Positions 4,459 through 25,676 of a stretch of DNA of 32,111 nt are shown piece by piece. The stretch covers positions 1 through 32,111 of the forward strand of contig JAGRPC010000116.1 in assembly GCA_020439925.1 (NCBI GenBank). Direction: 5' to 3'. The notes under the pieces were generated by a model that saw only the letters and a program-made list of their open reading frames with translations, was not told where the DNA came from and ran no database searches. A program made the position numbers and the translations under genes. Origin of the DNA: Verrucomicrobiia bacterium. GTDB lineage: Bacteria; Verrucomicrobiota; Verrucomicrobiia; Verrucomicrobiales; DEV007. Position 1 is the stretch's first letter. Each line of letters opens with the position of its first letter.

Positions 4459-4552
4459 GTTGAGGAGCATCTGGGAACATTCCTGCCTTTTCGAAGGAAC
4501 CCCAAGATCCCACCTCTCTTTCCCAATCCAAGGGCCTGATAGGATGCAGAAG

Positions 4553-4592
4553 TTTGATTTATAAAAAAATAATATTATTTTCATAAATCAAA
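4553..4592. promoter_or_regulatory. Long AT-rich palindrome upstream of the SRPK-like kinase
   Basis: A nearly perfect inverted repeat. The outer arms TTTGATTTAT (4553-4562) and ATAAATCAAA (4583-4592) pair fully. The inner arms AAAATAAT (4566-4573) and ATTATTTT (4574-4581) pair fully. Only AAA on the left against C on the right interrupts the stem. It lies 26 bases before the kinase ATG and 94 bases after the preceding stop. It could be an operator for a dimeric regulator, a 5'-UTR hairpin controlling the kinase, or a weak bidirectional terminator; there is no GC-rich stem plus T-tract of the classical kind. The AT content contrasts strongly with the neighbouring genes. Confidence 0.6.
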
Positions 4593-4618
4593 GTTTCACC
4601 CGCGCCTTTCGAAATCTG

Positions 4619-5848
4619 ATGTCTGAGAAATTCCCGGAAGTGGCCCTGAAAATCCACCGTCGTCGGTATGGCAATGACGGAAGGAGGGAATTCTTCGTCA
4701 CCCGATACATCGTGGAGCAAGGGCTTCCTCTTGATGCGGTTTCCGTTCCCTTTGAAGGGTTTGAAGCGGCAGAAGGCCATGTTTGTCTGGCCTACCCCCT
4801 TCTTGGCAAGGACTTGAACGGATGGAACCAGGACCGCGGGCGTCCTTTTTCCGTCGAAGAAACGCGGAGGATTGCGAAGAAGACCCTTGTATTCCTTGAC
4901 GCCTTCCACGAAAGCGGCGCGGCGCACACGGATATCAAGCCGGACAATTTCCTTTATGATCCCGGCACCGGAGAGATTCGCCTGATCGACTTCGGCAATT
5001 CGGAGCGACGTTTCAAGCGAGGTACCCCCGTTGCGACTCGTGAGTACACTCCGCCAGAGGGGATCATCGGTGGAGAACTGGGTCCGGCGGTGGATCTGTG
5101 GTCTTTCGCCTGCACGATCTTCGAACTCCTGACGCGGGAGTTTCTTTTTGATCCGCATGAGGCGGCTGCCGAGAAATACGTCGAGTTTTCAGATGACGGG
5201 GATGAAGACGAAGCGGAGGAGGAAGCCTCCTCTTCGGGAGAAGATCCGTCCGAAGAAGAGGGCCCGTATGCCAAGGGGAGGCTGGTCGCCGGCAAATACC
5301 GGATTCTCGAAGAACTCGGAAGCGGACATTTTGCCAGGGTGTGGCGGGCGAAGGTTGTTCATCCAGATCGTCATCTCGAGCCGCTGAGTCGACCTGCGGG
5401 CTCCGAGGTCTCGGCGGGGGTTTCGTCGGCGCCAGCGGTTCCCCAAACGTCCGGAGTCGAAGCACCGGTTTCACTGCCCGACCGGGCACGAGAGGCTCGT
5501 CGTAACAACAGGAAGCGATTCGGTGTCACCGACACCTATGACCTGGCCTTGAACTACGAGCACCTTCTCCTGATGCAGAACCTGCTTGGCCCCTGTCCTT
5601 CGGAAATGGCGAAGGACGGGATCTTCCACCAGATCTACTTCCGCCCGGACGGAGTCCTGAAATTCGATCCTTCGCCGGAGCCGGTCGCAGCGGAAAAAAC
5701 GATCTCAGCCAGACTGGTTAAGTCGGGTATTGCGAAAGAGGAAGCCACGCAGATCGAATCGCTTCTTCTCGCCATGTTGCGGTATGAGCCAAGGAAACGG
5801 GCCACGGCCGAACAGTGCCTCGCCCATTCGTGGTTGTCAGGGGCTTGA
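4619..5848 (+). CDS. SRPK-like serine/threonine protein kinase with rearranged N-lobe
   Basis: A 409-residue protein kinase. Visible motifs: beta3 lysine VALK (K11); catalytic loop HTDIKPDN (103-110), with the HTD form used by SR-protein kinases instead of HRD; metal-binding DFG (124-126); TREYTPPE (140-147), which replaces APE; DLWSFACTIFELLTREFLFDPH (159-180), very close to the SRPK block ending FEPH; and C-terminal RATAEQCLAHSWL. An acidic run (about 191-214), then GKYRILEELGSGHFARVW (225-242), resembles the SRPK N-terminus and glycine-rich loop, but it lies inside the chain rather than before K11. Only 26 bases separate the palindrome from the ATG and no in-frame ATG lies upstream. The gene is followed on the same strand by an SK/SR-repeat peptide, its likely substrate. 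Catalytic residues appear intact; activity is inferred. No transmembrane segment, so cytoplasmic. Confidence 0.88.
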   Translation: MSEKFPEVALKIHRRRYGNDGRREFFVTRYIVEQGLPLDAVSVPFEGFEAAEGHVCLAYPLLGKDLNGWNQDRGRPFSVEETRRIAKKTLVFLDAFHESGAAHTDIKPDNFLYDPGTGEIRLIDFGNSERRFKRGTPVATREYTPPEGIIGGELGPAVDLWSFACTIFELLTREFLFDPHEAAAEKYVEFSDDGDEDEAEEEASSSGEDPSEEEGPYAKGRLVAGKYRILEELGSGHFARVWRAKVVHPDRHLEPLSRPAGSEVSAGVSSAPAVPQTSGVEAPVSLPDRAREARRNNRKRFGVTDTYDLALNYEHLLLMQNLLGPCPSEMAKDGIFHQIYFRPDGVLKFDPSPEPVAAEKTISARLVKSGIAKEEATQIESLLLAMLRYEPRKRATAEQCLAHSWLSGA

Positions 5849-5996
5849 AGGGTCTCGGTAGAAGCGGAACAGCCGAAAGAACTTCCAAAGGGGATCACGC
5901 GGCGACCTTCGCTCGATTTGGGTTTTTCCAGTGGGCAATTCCACTCCGTGTCTGCCAGTTCCGGGCATTCGGGAGATAAAGCTATGGCAGGCGCAT

Positions 5997-6065
5997 TTGA
6001 CTATAATTATCAAAATTGAGATGTTTATAAAAATTTTGTTGTAATTTTGCAAAAAATAGATAAAG
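5997..6065 (+). promoter_or_regulatory. AT-rich promoter/operator region before the SK/SR peptide gene
   Basis: The 289-base gap between kinase and peptide genes holds no gene but turns sharply AT-rich from about 5997. TTGACT (5997-6002) could be a -35 box, with GATGTT (6020-6025) 17 bases on as a weak -10. The motif AATTTTG occurs at 6032-6038 and 6043-6049 (start-to-start 11 bases) and as its complement CAAAATT at 6011-6017 (21 bases before the first). The spacings are near one and two helical turns, as expected for a regulator binding on one face. A small stem TGGTT/AACCA lies further on in the leader. The peptide ATG has only a weak GGAA (6126-6129) as ribosome site. Exact promoter uncertain. 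Confidence 0.4.
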
Positions 6066-6137
6066 TCATCTTCATTCAAGCAGGAACAATTTCACGACCT
6101 GGTTGATAGAACCAAAAACACAAACGGAACTAGAATC

Positions 6138-6308
6138 ATGAAACAAAGCATCTTCACGAAGTTCGCTGACGCTGAAATCCTCGGTCTTGAACAAGTCACT
6201 GGCGGCGGAAAGACCAAGTGCGGTTCTTCCAGCAAGTCGAAGTCCAAGAGCAAGAGCCGGAGCCGTTCGGGATCTCGCGGAGGCTGCTGCGATTGCTACT
6301 GCTGGTAA
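6138..6308 (+). CDS. SK/SR-repeat double-glycine-leader peptide (putative RiPP precursor)
   Basis: A 56-residue peptide. The leader (1-23) ends in VTGG with L17 at -7 and V20 at -4 relative to cleavage after G23, which fits the double-glycine signal read by C39 peptidase transporters. The predicted core (24-56) starts GKTKCG, followed by SSSKSKSKSKSRSRSGSR (30-47) and the tail GGCCDCYCW. The core has ten serines, nine Lys/Arg, five Cys and one Asp. The alternating SK/SR stretch looks like an SR-domain, the substrate type of SRPK kinases, and an SRPK-like kinase is the gene before. The C39 transporter is the gene after. A strong terminator follows the stop, so the peptide may have its own abundant short transcript. 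Inferred: phosphorylated on serine in the cytoplasm, trimmed and exported. The Cys tail could bind metal or form disulfides. Final role (antimicrobial, signal, mineral- or surface-binding) unknown. Confidence 0.85.
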   Translation: MKQSIFTKFADAEILGLEQVTGGGKTKCGSSSKSKSKSKSRSRSGSRGGCCDCYCW

Positions 6309-6333
6309 TCTCACTCAAAAGTGAATTCCTTTG

Positions 6334-6372
6334 AAAGGGAGGCAGGTATGCTGCCTCCCTTTTGTGTTTTTT
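6334..6372 (+). terminator. Strong intrinsic terminator after the peptide gene
   Basis: Perfect 12-bp stem AAAGGGAGGCAG (6334-6345) / CTGCCTCCCTTT (6351-6362) with a 5-base loop GTATG, followed by a T-rich run to 6372. It lies 25 bases after the peptide stop and separates the peptide from the transporter gene. High peptide transcription with reduced or separate transporter transcription is the expected effect. Confidence 0.9.
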
Positions 6373-6373
6373 A

Positions 6374-6401
6374 TTGAAAATATAGAAAATTTGATTATGT
6401 T
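6374..6401 (+). promoter_or_regulatory. Possible sigma70-type promoter for the transporter operon
   Basis: TTGAAA (6374-6379) and TATGTT (6396-6401) are separated by 16 bases in an AT-rich stretch directly after the terminator and 42 bases before the first possible transporter ATG. The position right after a strong terminator favours a separate promoter for the transporter and adaptor genes. Boxes are only partial matches. Confidence 0.4.
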
Positions 6402-6443
6402 GAGAGGCTTTTAACCGATGCGCCTCCCAGTCTTTTCCTTTGA

Positions 6444-8783
6444 ATGTCGATTTCTGCCCGCCAGTCGTGGGAGAGCTATAGGAAGGGCGCCGCAGCCCAG
6501 GGGAGGAGCATCCGATTCTCAGTGTCCCTGTATCCCGGCCGAATGAAGTTCCCCGTCCATCGTCAACTCGACGGACACGATTGTGGTCCTACCTGCCTCC
6601 TTATGGTCGCCGAGTATTACGGGCGACGCTTTTCCCGTGACTACCTCAGGGGCCTCTGTTCGATCGGAAAGGGCGGGGTTTCGCTCCTCGGGATTTCCAA
6701 TGCCGCCGAACGCATTGGCCTCCGCTCCATGGCCGTCAGGATCGGTTATGAGAGGCTCCATCGGGAAGCCATCCTTCCCTGCATCGTTCACTGGCGTGGC
6801 GACCACTTTGTCGTGGTTCACAAAATCACTCCAAAAAAGGTCTGGGTCGCCGACCCGGAACGCGGGCTCATGGTCTACTCCCGCGACCAGTTCATCGCAG
6901 GTTGGACGGGCAGGGAGCCAAAGCGCGGCGACGGCGACGCGGACATCAAGGGCATCGTCCTGCTTCTCGAGGTTACCCCGGAGTTTCACGAAAGCCCACT
7001 GGAGGCGGGGGCTGCGCCGGAAAAGCCACTGAGGAGCCTCTGGTTCTTCGCCCGCTATCTCAGTCCGCACCGGAAACTCGTTGCGCAACTGTTCCTCGGG
7101 ATGTTCGTCGGGCTACTCCTCGAACTGATGTTCCCCTTCATTACCCAGGCGGTTGTCGACCACGGTATCGGGAACATGGACATGTCTCTCATCTATGTGT
7201 TCCTCGCCGCCCAGGTGATGCTTTCGGTGAGCCAGACAGCCACGTCCATGATCCGCAGTTGGATCTTCCTGCACGTCGGGTCTCGGATCGGTATTTCGCT
7301 GGTCGCGAACTTCCTCCAGAAACTCATGCGCCTGCCCCTCTCTTTCTTTGAGACGCGAACGGCGGGCGACATCATGCAGCGGATCAAGGACCACGACCGT
7401 GTGCGGCGATTCCTCACTTCGAATTCTCTCAACGCCATCTTTTCGATTTTTTCCTTTTTTGCCTTCGCCACGATTCTCGCCGTTTACCAGTGGTCCATCC
7501 TCGCGGTTTTCCTTGGTGTTACCGTCCTCTCCGTGATCTGGATGACGGTTTTCCTGAAGCGGAGGAGATCGTACGACCAGTTCCAGTTTGAACTGAATTC
7601 GAAAGAGCAGGACCGCCTCGTCCAGCTTGTCCATGGGGCCCAGGAGATCAAGGTGCACGGACTCGAGAAGCAAAAGCGTTGGGAATGGGAGGAACTGGCC
7701 GCCCGCCTCTTCAAACTGGATGTCAAATGGTTGACGCTGAAGCAGGTCGAGGGAACCGGCTCGTTTTTCCTTCGGAAAATGCGTGACGTGCTGATCTCCT
7801 TCCTCGCAGCCAGGGCCGTCATCAACGGAGATATGACTCTCGGCATGATGCTGTCGACCCAGTACATGGTGGGTCAGCTGAGTGGCCCCATCAGTGATCT
7901 CATGTCCTTCATCCACCAGGCCCAGGACGCCGGCATCAGCCTCGAGCGGATGCAGCAGATCTACCATGAGCAAGACGAGGAAATCGGCTCGCAGCTCAAG
8001 CTTCAGCATTTCCCGCCAAACCGGTCCATCACCTTGAATCGCATCAGTTTCCATTACCCGGGGCCGAAGCCCGTCAAGGTGCTGGACAGCTTGAGCCTTC
8101 ACATTCCCGAAGGCAAAGTCACTGCTATCGTAGGAGCCAGTGGGAGCGGGAAAACCACTCTGCTGAAGCTTCTCCTTGGCCTGCACCAGCCGCAGGAGGG
8201 CGGGATCTATGTTTCCAACATGCCGATCGAAACCTTCGATAACCACGCCTGGCGGGCACGGTTCGGGGTAGTGATGCAGGACGGATTCATCTTTTCAGAC
8301 ACCCTCGCGAGAAACATCGCGTGCGGCATGGGGCACATCGATCAGCAGCGGCTTCGCGCCGCCATCGAGATCGCGAATCTTCAGGAGTTTGTCAGGGGGC
8401 TTCCCGAGGGCCTCGACACGAAGATTGGCGCGGACGGTCGCAGCCTCAGCGGAGGGCAGACCCAACGTGTTCTGATTGCCCGTGCGATATATAAAGACCC
8501 GGAGTACGTCCTCTTCGACGAGGCGACCTCGGCGCTCGACGCGAACAACGAGCACACCATCCTCTGGAACCTGTCCCGCTTCATCCAGGGGCGCACCGTC
8601 GTCGTGATCGCCCACCGCCTCAGCACGGTGAGAAATGCGGACCAGATCGTCGTGATGGATGGAGGATTGATCGTCGAATGCGGTCCCCATCAGCAGCTCA
8701 TTGCCAACCGCGGGCGCTACTATGAACTCGTGAAGAACCAGCTCCAGCTCGAAAACTTGGAGGCTCCCGCGAAAGCCGTTTAA
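6444..8783 (+). CDS. C39 peptidase-containing ABC transporter (leader cleavage and export)
   Basis: A PCAT/bacteriocin-type exporter of up to 779 residues. The N-terminal C39 peptidase has QLDGHDCGPTC (Gln41, catalytic Cys47), GDHFVVVHK (His121) and VADPERGL (Asp137). The transmembrane domain spans about 205-490. The ATPase has Walker A GASGSGKTT (564-572), signature LSGGQTQR (668-675), Walker B YVLFDEATS and switch His in AHRLS. It should remove the leader of the peptide at 6138 after its GG and pump the core across the inner membrane. Start is uncertain: ATG 6444 lacks a ribosome site, GTG 6522 follows GGGGAGGAG at a somewhat long spacing, and ATG 6543 (MKFPVHRQLDG) gives the N-terminus typical of the family and is my favourite on homology. 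The adaptor gene follows 20 bases later, clearly in one operon. Confidence 0.95.
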   Translation: MSISARQSWESYRKGAAAQGRSIRFSVSLYPGRMKFPVHRQLDGHDCGPTCLLMVAEYYGRRFSRDYLRGLCSIGKGGVSLLGISNAAERIGLRSMAVRIGYERLHREAILPCIVHWRGDHFVVVHKITPKKVWVADPERGLMVYSRDQFIAGWTGREPKRGDGDADIKGIVLLLEVTPEFHESPLEAGAAPEKPLRSLWFFARYLSPHRKLVAQLFLGMFVGLLLELMFPFITQAVVDHGIGNMDMSLIYVFLAAQVMLSVSQTATSMIRSWIFLHVGSRIGISLVANFLQKLMRLPLSFFETRTAGDIMQRIKDHDRVRRFLTSNSLNAIFSIFSFFAFATILAVYQWSILAVFLGVTVLSVIWMTVFLKRRRSYDQFQFELNSKEQDRLVQLVHGAQEIKVHGLEKQKRWEWEELAARLFKLDVKWLTLKQVEGTGSFFLRKMRDVLISFLAARAVINGDMTLGMMLSTQYMVGQLSGPISDLMSFIHQAQDAGISLERMQQIYHEQDEEIGSQLKLQHFPPNRSITLNRISFHYPGPKPVKVLDSLSLHIPEGKVTAIVGASGSGKTTLLKLLLGLHQPQEGGIYVSNMPIETFDNHAWRARFGVVMQDGFIFSDTLARNIACGMGHIDQQRLRAAIEIANLQEFVRGLPEGLDTKIGADGRSLSGGQTQRVLIARAIYKDPEYVLFDEATSALDANNEHTILWNLSRFIQGRTVVVIAHRLSTVRNADQIVVMDGGLIVECGPHQQLIANRGRYYELVKNQLQLENLEAPAKAV

Positions 8784-8803
8784 TCCAGACCCAGATCTCT
8801 GAA

Positions 8804-10414
8804 ATGCCTTCTCCCGAACAACCCGACTCGTTCCATCCCGCGCGTCAGGCTCAGGAAAACTCCGCGTTCGGATTCTCGGGACGCCCCGCCTTTTCCGGCA
8901 GGCCGGAGTATCCCCTTCTGGGAGAAGCGACGATGGAAACTCCCCGTATTCCCGACGGAGCCGATCCCTCCGCCTCTTCACCGGGAAATCCCTCCACGGA
9001 ATCAACTGCATTTCCTCAAAAGGTCGACCCTGTGCATCACGCGCGTGCCGCTTCCGCCATCGTGCCCGCCAAGGTCGGAGGCAATTCGGTCGATCCTCCC
9101 GACTTTTCCTACGACGTGCAGGAGATCATGGCCAAGACTCCGCACTGGCTTCTGCGGAGCGGCACCACCGTGATCGCCGCTGTCCTTGCAATTGTTCTAT
9201 TCCTGACCTGGATGATTCGCTATCCCGATTCCATCACAGGCACGATGGAAATCGCGGGTGCCAATCCCGCCGTGGATGTCGTGGCCCGCCAGAGCGGTCA
9301 TATCGAGAGTCTGCATGTGAAGGAGGGAGACTTGGTTGAGAAAGGCCAGGTTCTCGCCGTGATCGAATCGACCATACCCGCGGCGAGGGTATTTTCTTTG
9401 AAGGAGCGGCTTTCCGCCCTGACCCCTTTCCTGAGCGACGCCTCCAAATTCGAATTGATCGAGATAGAGGCCGAAGAACAGCTCGGGAAGCTGCAGACCA
9501 GCTATTCCCAGTTTCTCAGCGACTACATCGCACTGCGCGAGATATTCGGGGATGATTATGCGGAGAGAACGGTGCGCCTTCTCTCTCTCCAGGCCGAAGA
9601 ACAGAAAAAGCGGATTTCCAATCTCGAGGGCCAGATTGCCAATGCCGATCGCACGGTACAGCTCGCCCGGGAGCGATATGAGCGAATGGAGAAGCTCCTC
9701 AGGCGCGACACCCTCAGCATCGCCGAATACGAGGAACAGGAAAACGAACTGCTCTCCGTCGAGGCCGCCAAGGCCGAGGTGGTGAGGGCGATGAACGCGG
9801 AACGAGTGTCTGCGCTCGACCTTGAAAAACAGATCAGCGACCTCCGCCACCAGCGGGAGGTGGTCGTTCGTGAGGGCATCACCAAGCTTCAGGAAAGTCT
9901 CAAGCAACTCCTTTCCGGAATCGACATCTGGGAGGAGGACTACGTGCTCAAGGCTCCGGTGGCGGGACGGGTTGCGTTCCTCGACTTCTGGGCCAACACG
10001 CAGTTCGTTGCCGGTGCCAGCCAGGTCTTCGTTGTTGCTCCCGAAAGCACCTCTCTCGTCGGACGAATGGAGGTGAAAGGGAAGGGCGTCGGCAAGATCC
10101 AGCCCGGACAACCTGTCCAGATTCGTTTTTCCGACTACGACTATAAGGAATTCGGAATCGTGACGGGTTCGGTCCGGAACGCCTCCATCGTTCCGAGGAA
10201 AGGGGGCAACCATCTCGTAGTTGTCGACCTCGAGTTTCCGCTGGTGACAAATTTTGGACGTGAGGTTCCCTTCAAGCAGGCGATGCAGGCCGAGGCCAGC
10301 ATTGTCACGGAGGACCTTCGACTCATCGAGCGCATTTTCTACGAGTTGCGAAGGGCAATCACGGACGCGGCGAAACCGAAGGGGGATCCCGAGCCGGCCG
10401 CGGTGAAGGTGTGA
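8804..10414 (+). CDS. HlyD-family periplasmic adaptor of the peptide exporter
   Basis: A 536-residue membrane fusion protein that should link the C39 transporter to an outer-membrane TolC-type channel, which is not in this window. Residues 1-115 are a Pro/Ser-rich, probably cytoplasmic extension. One transmembrane helix spans about 118-138 (TVIAAVLAIVLFLTWMI). The first half of the lipoyl-like domain is about 157-190 (RQSGHIESLHVKEGDLVEKG), a long alpha-helical hairpin rich in Glu/Lys/Arg is about 255-370, the second lipoyl half is LKAPVAGRV at 382-390, and the beta-barrel covers about 415-505. The block around KTPHWLLRSG and FLTWMIRYPD resembles adaptors that accompany bacteriocin-type PCATs in Bacteroidetes. 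The N-terminal extension is longer than usual; an alternative start is the ATG at 8933 (METPRIP). It directly follows the transporter gene. Confidence 0.92.
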   Translation: MPSPEQPDSFHPARQAQENSAFGFSGRPAFSGRPEYPLLGEATMETPRIPDGADPSASSPGNPSTESTAFPQKVDPVHHARAASAIVPAKVGGNSVDPPDFSYDVQEIMAKTPHWLLRSGTTVIAAVLAIVLFLTWMIRYPDSITGTMEIAGANPAVDVVARQSGHIESLHVKEGDLVEKGQVLAVIESTIPAARVFSLKERLSALTPFLSDASKFELIEIEAEEQLGKLQTSYSQFLSDYIALREIFGDDYAERTVRLLSLQAEEQKKRISNLEGQIANADRTVQLARERYERMEKLLRRDTLSIAEYEEQENELLSVEAAKAEVVRAMNAERVSALDLEKQISDLRHQREVVVREGITKLQESLKQLLSGIDIWEEDYVLKAPVAGRVAFLDFWANTQFVAGASQVFVVAPESTSLVGRMEVKGKGVGKIQPGQPVQIRFSDYDYKEFGIVTGSVRNASIVPRKGGNHLVVVDLEFPLVTNFGREVPFKQAMQAEASIVTEDLRLIERIFYELRRAITDAAKPKGDPEPAAVKV

Positions 10415-22096: not shown

Positions 22097-23857
22097 TCAG
22101 GCTCCTTCTTCCCCCGTTACCGGGGAATCGGGGGAGCCTTCGGCACCGCGCACGAGAACCTGTGCGACTTTCCTGACATTGTAGTAAAGGCGCTTGATGA
22201 GTCCGACGAGGTCGACCGTGATGCGGAATCCCTCGAGATCCATTTTCCCCTCTTTCATGAGCAGTCCCAGCGACTTCAGGGCCTGATCGATCTGCGAGTG
22301 GATTTCGGCCTTCCGGTGGATCACCTCGCGGGCGATCTCCACGTCTCCGCTCTCAATGGCGCTCAGCACATCCGCCGCGGAGGCAGCCACCGCCGACCAG
22401 GCGGGGCGGAGGGGAGTGGTCGCGGAGTCGGTGGCGATGGAATGGTCCACCGTGTGCATTCCCTGCGCGACAAAATCGGTGCCGATGAGGTCCCCGGTGC
22501 TTTCCATGTAGTTGGCGATCGAGAGCAATTGCTCAAGCCTGGAGGACTCGGAGGTGGAAAGATCTCCCCGACCGAGCGCGTTGAGATAGTCGAGGATGGC
22601 GAGGTGGAGCCGGTCGACATCCTCGTCCATCTCCGCGAGTCGCTGTAGTTTCCAGCGGTCGCGAGCCCTCCACGCATCGGGAGTCGCCACGATCATGCGG
22701 GTAACGCATTCCCCCATGTGCACCAGTTCCATCCTGGCCCGGTCGAGGGCGAGTGAAGGGGTGGCGAGGTAGACCTTGTCGAGGAACTTCGGCTCGATGA
22801 TCGCCGGCATTGTGACCTTTTTTTCCGGCACGATCTTCGAGGCGAGGTGGGCGATCGGATTCACGAACCAGATCAGGATCAGGGTGTTGGTCACGTTGAA
22901 AAGCGTGTTGGCGTTGGCGACCTGGCGGGGAGTCTCGGCGACGAGGCGGGCCATGCCATCAAGATCCGGTCGGGAGGGGGAAATCTCTCTCGCGAGTCCT
23001 CCTAGCTGATCGATGAACCCCACCCAGAGCAGGGCACCGATCACGTTGAAGAGGACGTGGACGACCGCCGTCCTCATCGCGACGGGAGGCTTGCCGAGGG
23101 CCGAGAGGATGGCGGTGATGCAGGTCCCGATGTTTGAGCCGAGGGCGAGCGTGATTCCCGCCTCGAGGGTAAGGAAACCCTGGGAGGCGAGCATGATCAC
23201 GATGCCCGTGGTGGCGGAGGAACTCTGCACAAGGGCGGTGAAGGCTGCCCCGAGAAAGATGCCGAAGAGCGGGGAATCCATCTTCGACATCAGTTGGATG
23301 AAGGGCGGGTAGGTGCGGAGGGGATCGGTCGCCTCGCTCATCTGATCCATGCCGATGAAGAGGAGACCGAGCCCCAGAATCATGGCGCCGTATTCCTTGA
23401 CCACCTGGCGTCGGGGGAAGGTCCAGACGGCGAATCCGGCCGCCACGAGGACCCAGGAAAAGGCGGTGATCTTGAAGGCGACGATCTGCGCGGTGATCGT
23501 GGTGCCTATATTGGCCCCCATGATCACCCCGACCGACTGGCCCAGGGTCATGAGACCGGCGCTGACGAAACCGACGACAAGAACGGTCGTGACCGATGAA
23601 GACTGGATCACGGCGGTCACGAGCGCGCCGGAGGCCGCCGCAGTGAACCGGTTCGTGGTGAGGCGCCCGAGAAGAGCCCTCATTCCATCTCCGGCGGCCA
23701 GCTTGAGCCCCTCGGACATCGTGTGCATGCCGTAGAGGAAAAGGGCGAGACCTCCGAAGAGACCGGTTCCGATGGTGAGGAAGCTGGGGGAGTCTTCCAT
23801 GGGGATCGTGACTCGCGACAAGAGGCCGAGTCCGCTGGCAGAGGGTTCTTTGGGCAC
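22097..23857 (-). CDS. Na+/phosphate symporter family protein with PhoU-like C-terminus
   Basis: A 586-residue NptA/PhoU-type transporter that should move inorganic phosphate (or an organic anion) with sodium across the inner membrane. It has two inverted repeats with the family QSSS motif (AVIQSSSVTTVLVVGF and LVQSSSATTGIVIM), each followed by a GANIGTTITAQIVAF / GSNIGTCITAILSAL block. From about residue 395 the sequence becomes helical and hydrophilic and ends in a PhoU-like four-helix region. The start is a GTG at 23857 preceded at good spacing by GAGAGGA; a second candidate is the ATG at 23800. It is adjacent to the PhoD phosphatase on the same strand (137-base gap), which fits a phosphate-supply role. 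Specificity is inferred from family only. Confidence 0.9.
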   Translation of the reverse strand: MPKEPSASGLGLLSRVTIPMEDSPSFLTIGTGLFGGLALFLYGMHTMSEGLKLAAGDGMRALLGRLTTNRFTAAASGALVTAVIQSSSVTTVLVVGFVSAGLMTLGQSVGVIMGANIGTTITAQIVAFKITAFSWVLVAAGFAVWTFPRRQVVKEYGAMILGLGLLFIGMDQMSEATDPLRTYPPFIQLMSKMDSPLFGIFLGAAFTALVQSSSATTGIVIMLASQGFLTLEAGITLALGSNIGTCITAILSALGKPPVAMRTAVVHVLFNVIGALLWVGFIDQLGGLAREISPSRPDLDGMARLVAETPRQVANANTLFNVTNTLILIWFVNPIAHLASKIVPEKKVTMPAIIEPKFLDKVYLATPSLALDRARMELVHMGECVTRMIVATPDAWRARDRWKLQRLAEMDEDVDRLHLAILDYLNALGRGDLSTSESSRLEQLLSIANYMESTGDLIGTDFVAQGMHTVDHSIATDSATTPLRPAWSAVAASAADVLSAIESGDVEIAREVIHRKAEIHSQIDQALKSLGLLMKEGKMDLEGFRITVDLVGLIKRLYYNVRKVAQVLVRGAEGSPDSPVTGEEGA

Positions 23858-23994
23858 TGGATTCCTCTCCCTTCACAAACGGGGAAAAGGGAGGGAGGTA
23901 TAACGACGGGGGATCCTGACAGAAAGACCGTCGATTCCGAGAATCCACCGGGTGCAACCCGATGGTCAAGGGCAATCTGGCGTTGGGAGAACCC

Positions 23995-25611
23995 TCAGGT
24001 CTTCTGGGCTCCGGCTCGTCCGGCCTCGATCACGAAGCTCGCCTTGGTTTCGATCGGGGATCCCGGCTTGTCGACGTAGGGGGTCGTCCGGAAATGGGTG
24101 AGCCAGGCGTCGGGAGTGAGCTCACAGGTGACATAACCACGATTCGAGTTGTAGAAGCGCACGAAGGGATTTTGCGCGACGGCGCGTTCGTATTCGGGGA
24201 TGACATTGCCGCCGTTCCCCGAGGAGGTCATCGAAGTGCCGACCAGTTCGGTGCCAACGAGGGGCGAATCCGGATTCTCGAAGTCGAGTTGCAGGTCGTT
24301 GACCCAGTTGAGGTGGATGTCGCCGGTGAGCACCACTGGATTTGGAACGCGGCGTTCGTGGAAGAAACGGAGGAGGCGGCGACGGCTCACCTCGTATCCC
24401 GGCCACTGGTCCATGCTGTAGCGCTTGTTTTCGCCCTCGCCGCGGTTCAGCGGCGCCATCATGACCTGCTGGGCGAGCACGTTCCAGGTCGACTCGGTTC
24501 GCAGCAGGTTGCCCATGAGCCACTTTTCCTGGCTTTCCCCCAGCATCGTCGCCCGTGGATCGAAGACCTTGCCCTCCATCGGTTTCTGGTGATCTCCGTT
24601 GGGCTGGTCGGTGCGATATTGGCGGGTGTCGAGCACCTGGAAGTTCGCGAGGCGACCATAGCGGCATTCACGGTAGAGGGTCATGTCCGGGCCCTGAGGA
24701 AAGGAGCGCCGACGCAGCGGCATGAACTCGTAGTAGGCCTGATAGGCATTGGCGCGTCGGATCAGGAATTCCTCCGGAGAAACGCCTTCCTCCTCCGAGA
24801 CGAGGCTTGCATAGTTGTTGTCGAACTCGTGATCATCCCAGGTCACCAGCCAGGGGAAGATCCGGTGAGTGTCCTGGAGCGCGGGATCGAGCCGGTACTG
24901 CGAGTAGCGGATCCGGTAATCGTCTAGGGATTCGACTTCCCTCCCGATATGCCGTCGCGGTTTTCCGTCCTGGGAGCCGTACTCGTAGATGTAGTCGCCA
25001 AGATGGACGACGAGGTCGAGATCCTCCTGCTGCATGTGCGGGTAGCCGTTGAAATAACCCGTCTCGTAGTGCTGGCAGGAAGTGAAAGCGAATCGCAGGA
25101 GTTCCGGCGTCGCCTCGGGTGCGGGCGCGGTGCGGGTGCGCCCCGTGACGCTGCTCTCCTCTCCGGCATGGAAGCGGTAGTAGTACCATCGGTAGGCATC
25201 CAGTCCGTCGACCTCGACATGCACGGAGTGACCCAGCTGGGGAACGGCGACGGCTTCACCCTGGCGGATCACTTTCGCAAAGGCCTCGTCCTCGGCCACT
25301 TCCCATCGCACCTGTACGGCCGACGATGTCATCCCGCCGCCGGGTTCCAGAGGTTTTGGCGCTAGACGGGTCCAGATCACGACTCCGTCCGGCTCCGGAT
25401 CGCCCGAGGCCACTCCGAGGGTGAAGGGGTTTCCCGCGAAGCGCGGTCTCGTTTCGACCTGGCCGGAAGCGATCACCGGCAAAAAGGGAATGGACGAGAC
25501 CGCCGAGAGGTAGCGGAGAAACTCGCGCCGACCCACGCCATAGGTGCGTGAGGCAGGCTGCGTTCCGTGGGTGAAAAGGGGGGCACGATACAGGCTCATC
25601 GGGAGAATCAT
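23995..25611 (-). CDS. phoD: PhoD-like alkaline phosphatase/phosphodiesterase
   Basis: About 538 residues from ATG 25611; the ATG at 25599 (MSLYRAP) is equally possible and an upstream TTG is unlikely. It carries a Tat signal (GRREFLRYLSAVSSIPFLPV). The N-terminal PhoD beta-domain shows FTLGVASGDPEPDGVVIWTRL. The catalytic domain has FTSCQHYETGYF, HLGDYIYEYG, TWDDHEFDNNYAS and VVLTGDIHLNWVND, which supply the metal-binding Asp, His, Asn and Cys of the PhoD family. It should release phosphate from phosphomonoesters and diesters outside the cytoplasm, using Ca and Fe in characterised members. It is upstream of the Na/phosphate symporter on the same strand. Functional call is by family motifs and is secure at family level. 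Confidence 0.92.
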   Translation of the reverse strand: MILPMSLYRAPLFTHGTQPASRTYGVGRREFLRYLSAVSSIPFLPVIASGQVETRPRFAGNPFTLGVASGDPEPDGVVIWTRLAPKPLEPGGGMTSSAVQVRWEVAEDEAFAKVIRQGEAVAVPQLGHSVHVEVDGLDAYRWYYYRFHAGEESSVTGRTRTAPAPEATPELLRFAFTSCQHYETGYFNGYPHMQQEDLDLVVHLGDYIYEYGSQDGKPRRHIGREVESLDDYRIRYSQYRLDPALQDTHRIFPWLVTWDDHEFDNNYASLVSEEEGVSPEEFLIRRANAYQAYYEFMPLRRRSFPQGPDMTLYRECRYGRLANFQVLDTRQYRTDQPNGDHQKPMEGKVFDPRATMLGESQEKWLMGNLLRTESTWNVLAQQVMMAPLNRGEGENKRYSMDQWPGYEVSRRRLLRFFHERRVPNPVVLTGDIHLNWVNDLQLDFENPDSPLVGTELVGTSMTSSGNGGNVIPEYERAVAQNPFVRFYNSNRGYVTCELTPDAWLTHFRTTPYVDKPGSPIETKASFVIEAGRAGAQKT

Positions 25612-25676
25612 CCCGGATCGAACGACCTGCCGCAATGGCCGATGCAGGGACCCTGCGGTCGTTTCCGGGCCCGGGG

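Follow-up and report, generated by a model that had tools for sequence, protein, structure and literature searches.

An SRPK-type kinase with a displaced glycine loop beside an SR/SK-repeat double-glycine peptide and a C39 exporter in a Verrucomicrobiia bacterium

A known precedent for serine phosphorylation of a precursor peptide is that of lasso peptides, whose cluster-encoded kinases phosphorylate the precursor on one C-terminal Ser (PMC9266682). Diatoms secrete silaffins, basic peptides that bear many phosphoserines, and the kinase tpSTK1 prefers basic substrates (PMC4557024). SRPKs recognize the docking consensus R-x-R/K-x(3)-R through a groove that includes the αF-αG loop and, in SRPK1, the acidic residues D548, E552, D564, and E571 (PMC11809128). 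Phosphorylation by SRPK1 is abolished by Arg-to-Lys changes, while CLKs accept Ser-Lys (PMC4841541). Some S+R-rich protein occurs in about a quarter of bacteria (PMC9479744), and SR repeats as such are therefore not unique to eukaryotes. In none of the lasso-kinase, silaffin, or bacterial S+R-rich precedents does a kinase of SRPK type occur together with a double-glycine SR peptide that is exported.

We examined a locus in a 32,111-nt stretch of DNA (the window), which is part of one contig (C457) of a 5.97-Mb assembly that is 93% complete and divided into 607 contigs. In the phosphorylated lasso peptides (paeninodin, PadeK/ThcoK), a kinase encoded in the cluster phosphorylates a precursor serine prior to maturation (PMC9266682), as the window kinase putatively does, but the lasso-peptide kinases are marked by a His-Lys-Asp-Asp motif and modify a single C-terminal Ser, whereas the window pairs a eukaryotic-type kinase with a serine repeat. 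Silaffins are likewise basic, Lys/Ser-rich, and secreted, and the proposed window product would be comparable in charge pattern; unlike it, they follow a eukaryotic secretory route and carry polyamine or methyl modifications on their lysines, and the likeness comes with no homology shown. With C39-exported double-glycine peptides (bacteriocins, class II microcins), the peptide shares a GG(G) leader end, a C39-ABC exporter, and an HlyD adaptor, but its core is an SK/SR repeat with a Cys tail. The kinase shares with SRPK1/2, Sky1, and the CLKs an HTDIKP[ED]N catalytic loop, an SRPK-like C-lobe end, and an SR-repeat candidate substrate; it differs in being bacterial, in carrying the N-terminal acidic/glycine-loop segment within the αF-αG loop, and in having as candidate substrate a small Ser-Lys-rich double-glycine export peptide.

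The four plus-strand genes that a sequence-only reading had listed in order (kinase, peptide, C39 exporter, HlyD adaptor) are all present as open reading frames between 4619 and 10414 (Table 1), and a domain search found C39, ABC, and HlyD domains in the exporter and adaptor genes. That reading had placed the start of the kinase region at 4553, which instead falls within an AT-rich inverted repeat, the frame itself opening downstream. It had also seen no LanM, YcaO, radical-SAM, or cyclase gene nearby, in agreement with the Pfam results for the other main ORFs of the window, among which no domain of the lanthipeptide, YcaO, radical-SAM, or cyclase kind was detected. The kinase and peptide genes are 290 nt apart, the gap being AT-rich, and are probably separate transcription units. 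A strong, terminator-like hairpin 3' of the peptide gene likewise makes it improbable that peptide and exporter form a single simple operon. Elsewhere in the window, a Na/Pi cotransporter with a PhoU domain and a PhoD phosphatase share the contig with this putative phosphopeptide system.

Table 1. Positions of the features discussed; window coordinates unless another contig is named
Feature	Contig	Coordinates	Strand
AT-rich inverted repeat, 18-nt arms, upstream of kinase gene	window	4550-4595	
SRPK/CLK-type protein kinase, 409 aa, N-terminal segment relocated	window	4619-5848	+
β3 motif VALKI, residues 8-12; protein begins right at β3	window	4640-4654	+
Catalytic loop HTDIKPDN, residues 103-110, SRPK-type sequence	window	4925-4948	+
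DFGN motif, residues 124-127	window	4988-4999	+
Acidic stretch in αF-αG loop, 16 D/E in residues 184-216	window	5177-5263	+
Relocated β1-glycine loop-β2 segment, residues 218-245, ...GKYRILEELGSGHFARVWRAK	window	5270-5353	+
SRPK-like C-lobe end, residues 304-409	window	5528-5845	+
Double-glycine precursor peptide, SK/SR-repeat core, 56 aa	window	6138-6308	+
Leader MKQSIFTKFADAEILGLEQVTGGG, family common to G000:C434, G067:C3, and G067:C179 peptides	window	6138-6209	+
Alternating S-K/R run, 13 residues (32-44)	window	6231-6269	+
RSRSGSR, residues 41-47, matching SRPK docking consensus	window	6258-6278	+
Terminator-like hairpin behind peptide gene	window	6332-6364	+
C39 peptidase/ABC exporter, true start likely near 6543	window	6444-8783	+
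HlyD-type adaptor	window	8804-10414	+
Na/Pi cotransporter with PhoU domain, PhoD phosphatase	window	22097-25635	-
Double-glycine peptide (L075), same leader family	G000:C434	1827-2072	-
Double-glycine peptide (L141), same leader family	G067:C179	2129-2362	-
Gly/Tyr/Ser/Gln-rich double-glycine-leader peptides (L032)	G074:C2	7733-8044, 8089-8409	
C39/HlyD pair (L031)	G019:C126	4637-8259	

In a PDB sequence search, the best match to the kinase is Sky1 (E 3e-28), followed by SRPK1 and SRPK2 and then by CLK and DYRK, whereas a control kinase of the ordinary sort, encoded in the same genome, matches PknB first. The assignment as SRPK-like, made earlier from the letters alone, thus stands, the PknB type not being closest. 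The β3 Lys, the HTDIKPDN loop, DFG, and the C-lobe Arg are intact. When a model of the protein was compared with known folds, CMGC kinases were among the top rows, and SRPK2 and Sky1 were listed, though not on top. We observe no close SRPK-like relative in 75 genomes of the family or in 388 genomes of the phylum, among the best five candidates of each phylum genome, and a motif scan of 85,000 species, together with viral contigs, phages, and plasmids, returned distant ordinary kinases or nothing. Two other identities were considered and rejected. As a LanL/LanKC synthetase, the protein scores 43.6 and 25.7 bits against cut-offs of 650 and 575, with the kinase part only, and as a MAD6 defence kinase, it scores 56 bits against a cut-off of 460; its MAD6 and PD-T4-6 matches are generic, most ordinary control kinases outscoring it on both models.

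The peptide is made up of the leader MKQSIFTKFADAEILGLEQVTGGG and the core KTKCGSSSKSKSKSKSRSRSGSRGGCCDCYCW, with the cut point at the double glycine. A short leader ending in GG(G) next to a C39-ABC gene places it with the double-glycine substrates of C39 exporters, and neither Pfam nor NCBIfam gives a family match. The SK/SR core and Cys tail first noticed by eye are borne out as a 13-residue alternating S-K/R run (P ~5e-6 against shuffles of the peptide's own core) and a tail reading CCDCYCW. Four of the serine codons and three of the arginine codons are used in it, which makes the run a feature of the protein rather than a DNA microsatellite. The core contains 10 serines, four of which touch Arg and four more Lys only, so that Lys is the sole basic neighbour for half of those that have one; the peptide's only three arginines all lie in RSRSGSR.

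Related peptides are found both in the same genome and in G067, a genome from another genus of the same family. A leader profile has three strong members (E ~1e-16), from which the profile itself had been built: the window peptide, another own-genome peptide on contig C434, and one peptide in G067, on C3. The weaker match of a further G067 peptide, on C179 (E 0.007), represents true membership, since the C-terminal half of its core matches the C434 peptide almost residue for residue. This conserved core, KGNNGIGQEKRG[IV]LDGPPPGLA-Q-RQDFNDRSGNRHGVEV, is of a non-SR type and occurs in the two genera. No exporter gene is evident near the C434 or C179 peptide, and the two are probably companion substrates of the same exporter.

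SR/SK repeats are present in two G067 peptides, on contigs C3 and C162, and in the window's own genome, the repeat pattern and the leader profile find the window peptide as the only SR-repeat double-glycine peptide. The C3 peptide (MKNTLSIDHFTYGAIEGTEAVLGGGCKK...KSRSRSKSKSGSRSKSKSRSKSKSGS...) belongs to the leader family. Only the 3' part of the C162 peptide is present, at a contig end, its own leader and upstream DNA being missing from the assembly, and just downstream of it lie a gene for an outer-membrane efflux protein (OEP), the closest relative of the window exporter (60% identity), and an HlyD gene. Behind its repeat is a Cys cluster, RLCCCPTN, where the window peptide has CCDCYCW. The resemblance of this locus to the window places SR repeat, Cys tail, and C39 exporter together in two genera, and the SR/SK export peptide class that these genera share is real. 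We did not find this group in the family libraries searched. The combination that the sequence-only reading had proposed to look for in other genomes, an SK/SR peptide with an SRPK-like kinase and a C39 transporter, thus recurs in G067 as far as the peptide and exporter are concerned, but no SRPK-like kinase was detected there.

Recovery of these peptides depended on the type of search. A full-peptide search of the family missed the G067 peptides, presumably because of their low complexity, and they were recovered by the repeat pattern and then by the leader profile; a leader DNA pattern matched only the two own-genome peptides. A generic S-K/R/G DNA pattern, when applied to the whole family, was swamped by hexanucleotide repeats and was useful on four genomes only. 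As such low-complexity repeats occur in many family genomes and the reversed control was about as frequent, SR-like DNA patterns need an in-frame check.

With respect to specificity, the positions equivalent to SRPK1 D548, E552, D564, and E571 are occupied by E, D, E, and N in the window kinase, as read by hand from alignments, such that three of the four docking-groove positions appear to remain acidic. The docking consensus, which RSRSGSR matches, is also matched at sites in both G067 peptides; since 43% of shuffles of the window peptide's K/R/G letters satisfy it as well, this match is weak evidence. As SRPK1 does not tolerate a change of Arg to Lys, standard SRPK sites would number just 4 among the 10 core serines. 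Finally, the one SRPK-like kinase that searches of about 460 genomes brought up adjoins the one SR-repeat double-glycine peptide detected in the genome that encodes it.

The best single explanation of the locus, to which we give an even chance, is a RiPP-like secretion system in which the neighbouring SRPK/CLK-type kinase phosphorylates the core serines of the peptide before export. Judging from the families involved, the peptide would be made with a double-glycine leader, which the C39 domain would remove, and the core would leave through the ABC/HlyD channel. The kinase would probably bind the basic core via its acidic αF-αG groove, enlarged by a strongly acidic insert, and before export it would phosphorylate the repeat serines, at least the Arg-flanked S40, S42, S44, and S46. 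The product would carry a Cys tail and phosphoserines in alternation with Lys/Arg, and surface or mineral binding, metal binding, and antimicrobial action are its candidate uses. If the kinase does act on the peptide, the system would represent a bacterial equivalent of SR-domain phosphorylation, and the phosphorylation of a secreted repeat at several serines would be a peptide modification that we have not found described.

A less probable but still substantial alternative is export without modification: the peptide would be a polycationic, Cys-rich product with an antimicrobial, adhesive, or nucleic-acid- or mineral-binding role, and the adjacent kinase would serve some other purpose. This would be consistent with the terminator between peptide and exporter, with the very basic character of the G067 SR peptides (net charge about +14 and +22), and with the presence of SR peptides and an exporter in G067, where we detect no SRPK-like kinase. 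The 15-kb contig of the C3 peptide has no kinase match, nor does contig C434, which encodes the own-genome companion peptide of the same leader family. At C162, however, the assembly lacks the leader of the exporter-linked SR peptide and the DNA immediately before it, making the missing kinase weak evidence there; its absence counts more at C3. Against unmodified export, we infer that an SRPK/CLK kinase beside an SR-repeat substrate is unlikely to arise by chance among several thousand genes, and we estimate, after the fact, a chance below one in a thousand for such an adjacency.

The kinase is not the ordinary SRPK that its first description implied: the SRPK/CLK type holds, but its N-terminus is displaced behind the catalytic core, which that description had missed. 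In the canonical SRPK order, the glycine loop precedes the β3 Lys, the catalytic loop, and DFG, whereas here it occupies residues 234-241, 131 residues past the catalytic loop and also after DFG. In control kinases, the glycine loop comes before the catalytic loop wherever the pattern found one, which was not the case in ~40% of them. The SRPK match consists of pieces in a changed order: residues 198-253 correspond to the N-terminus, including its acidic lead-in and glycine loop, residues 53-187 to the core, and residues 312-407 to the C-terminal end. Once reordered, the kinase aligns collinearly with Sky1 as one domain (residues 22-333, E 4.5e-32), with no gap at the β2-β3 junction, where the end of the moved piece (WRAK) meets the protein start (MSEKFPEVALKI); the moved piece alone has SRPK1/2 as its best match, a weak one (E 0.02). 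At the level of sequence, these alignments show the kinase to be an SRPK whose acidic stretch, β1, glycine loop, and β2 have moved into the αF-αG loop. The large spacer that divides the SRPK core in two, in SRPK1 between the catalytic loop and DFG, is absent from that place, and the insert sits in the αF-αG loop instead.

AlphaFold is confident of the kinase fold over most of residues 4-180 and of a hairpin at 227-246. The hairpin region alone is predicted with equal confidence, and its high pLDDT is therefore no evidence of docking onto the N-lobe. It is improbable that the gene is a decaying or assembly-scrambled SRPK from a eukaryote, inactive and adjacent to the peptide as a relic: the glycine loop stands outside its usual order, β1-β2 are missing from the beginning of the encoded N-lobe, and the searches gave no orthologue that could reveal selection, but the gene is one open frame of 409 codons with both junctions in frame, its catalytic and glycine-loop motifs are intact, no direct repeats at the junctions suggest misassembly, and its GC is close to that of its neighbours. 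In the favoured reading, the relocated segment, on long flexible linkers, would still pack onto the N-lobe. The full proposal, a new class of SR/SK phosphopeptides, ribosomally made, with C39 export and multi-site phosphorylation by a eukaryote-derived SRPK whose relocated hairpin complements the N-lobe, is tentative, and we put it at somewhat short of even. The literature terms tried led to no description of a kinase whose glycine loop is relocated, and even without peptide phosphorylation, an SRPK with a displaced glycine loop shows, as an experiment of nature, how far the protein kinase fold can be rearranged.

The relatives of the window exporter are 51-60% identical to it and lack the 33 residues that the first ATG adds, making Met34 the likelier start. 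The NHLM/NHLP exporter model TIGR03796 gives 411 bits against a curated cut-off of 853. An exporter search of the phylum, limited to the best two candidates per genome, was negative and is weak for that scope. Within the same genus, one genome (G019) has a related C39/HlyD pair with no recognisable double-glycine peptide beside the exporter. In another genome (G074), two Gly/Tyr/Ser/Gln-rich double-glycine-leader peptides lie directly upstream of a related C39 exporter; the first has no Pfam match, and the SQxNQNG motifs of the two resemble curli-type repeats.
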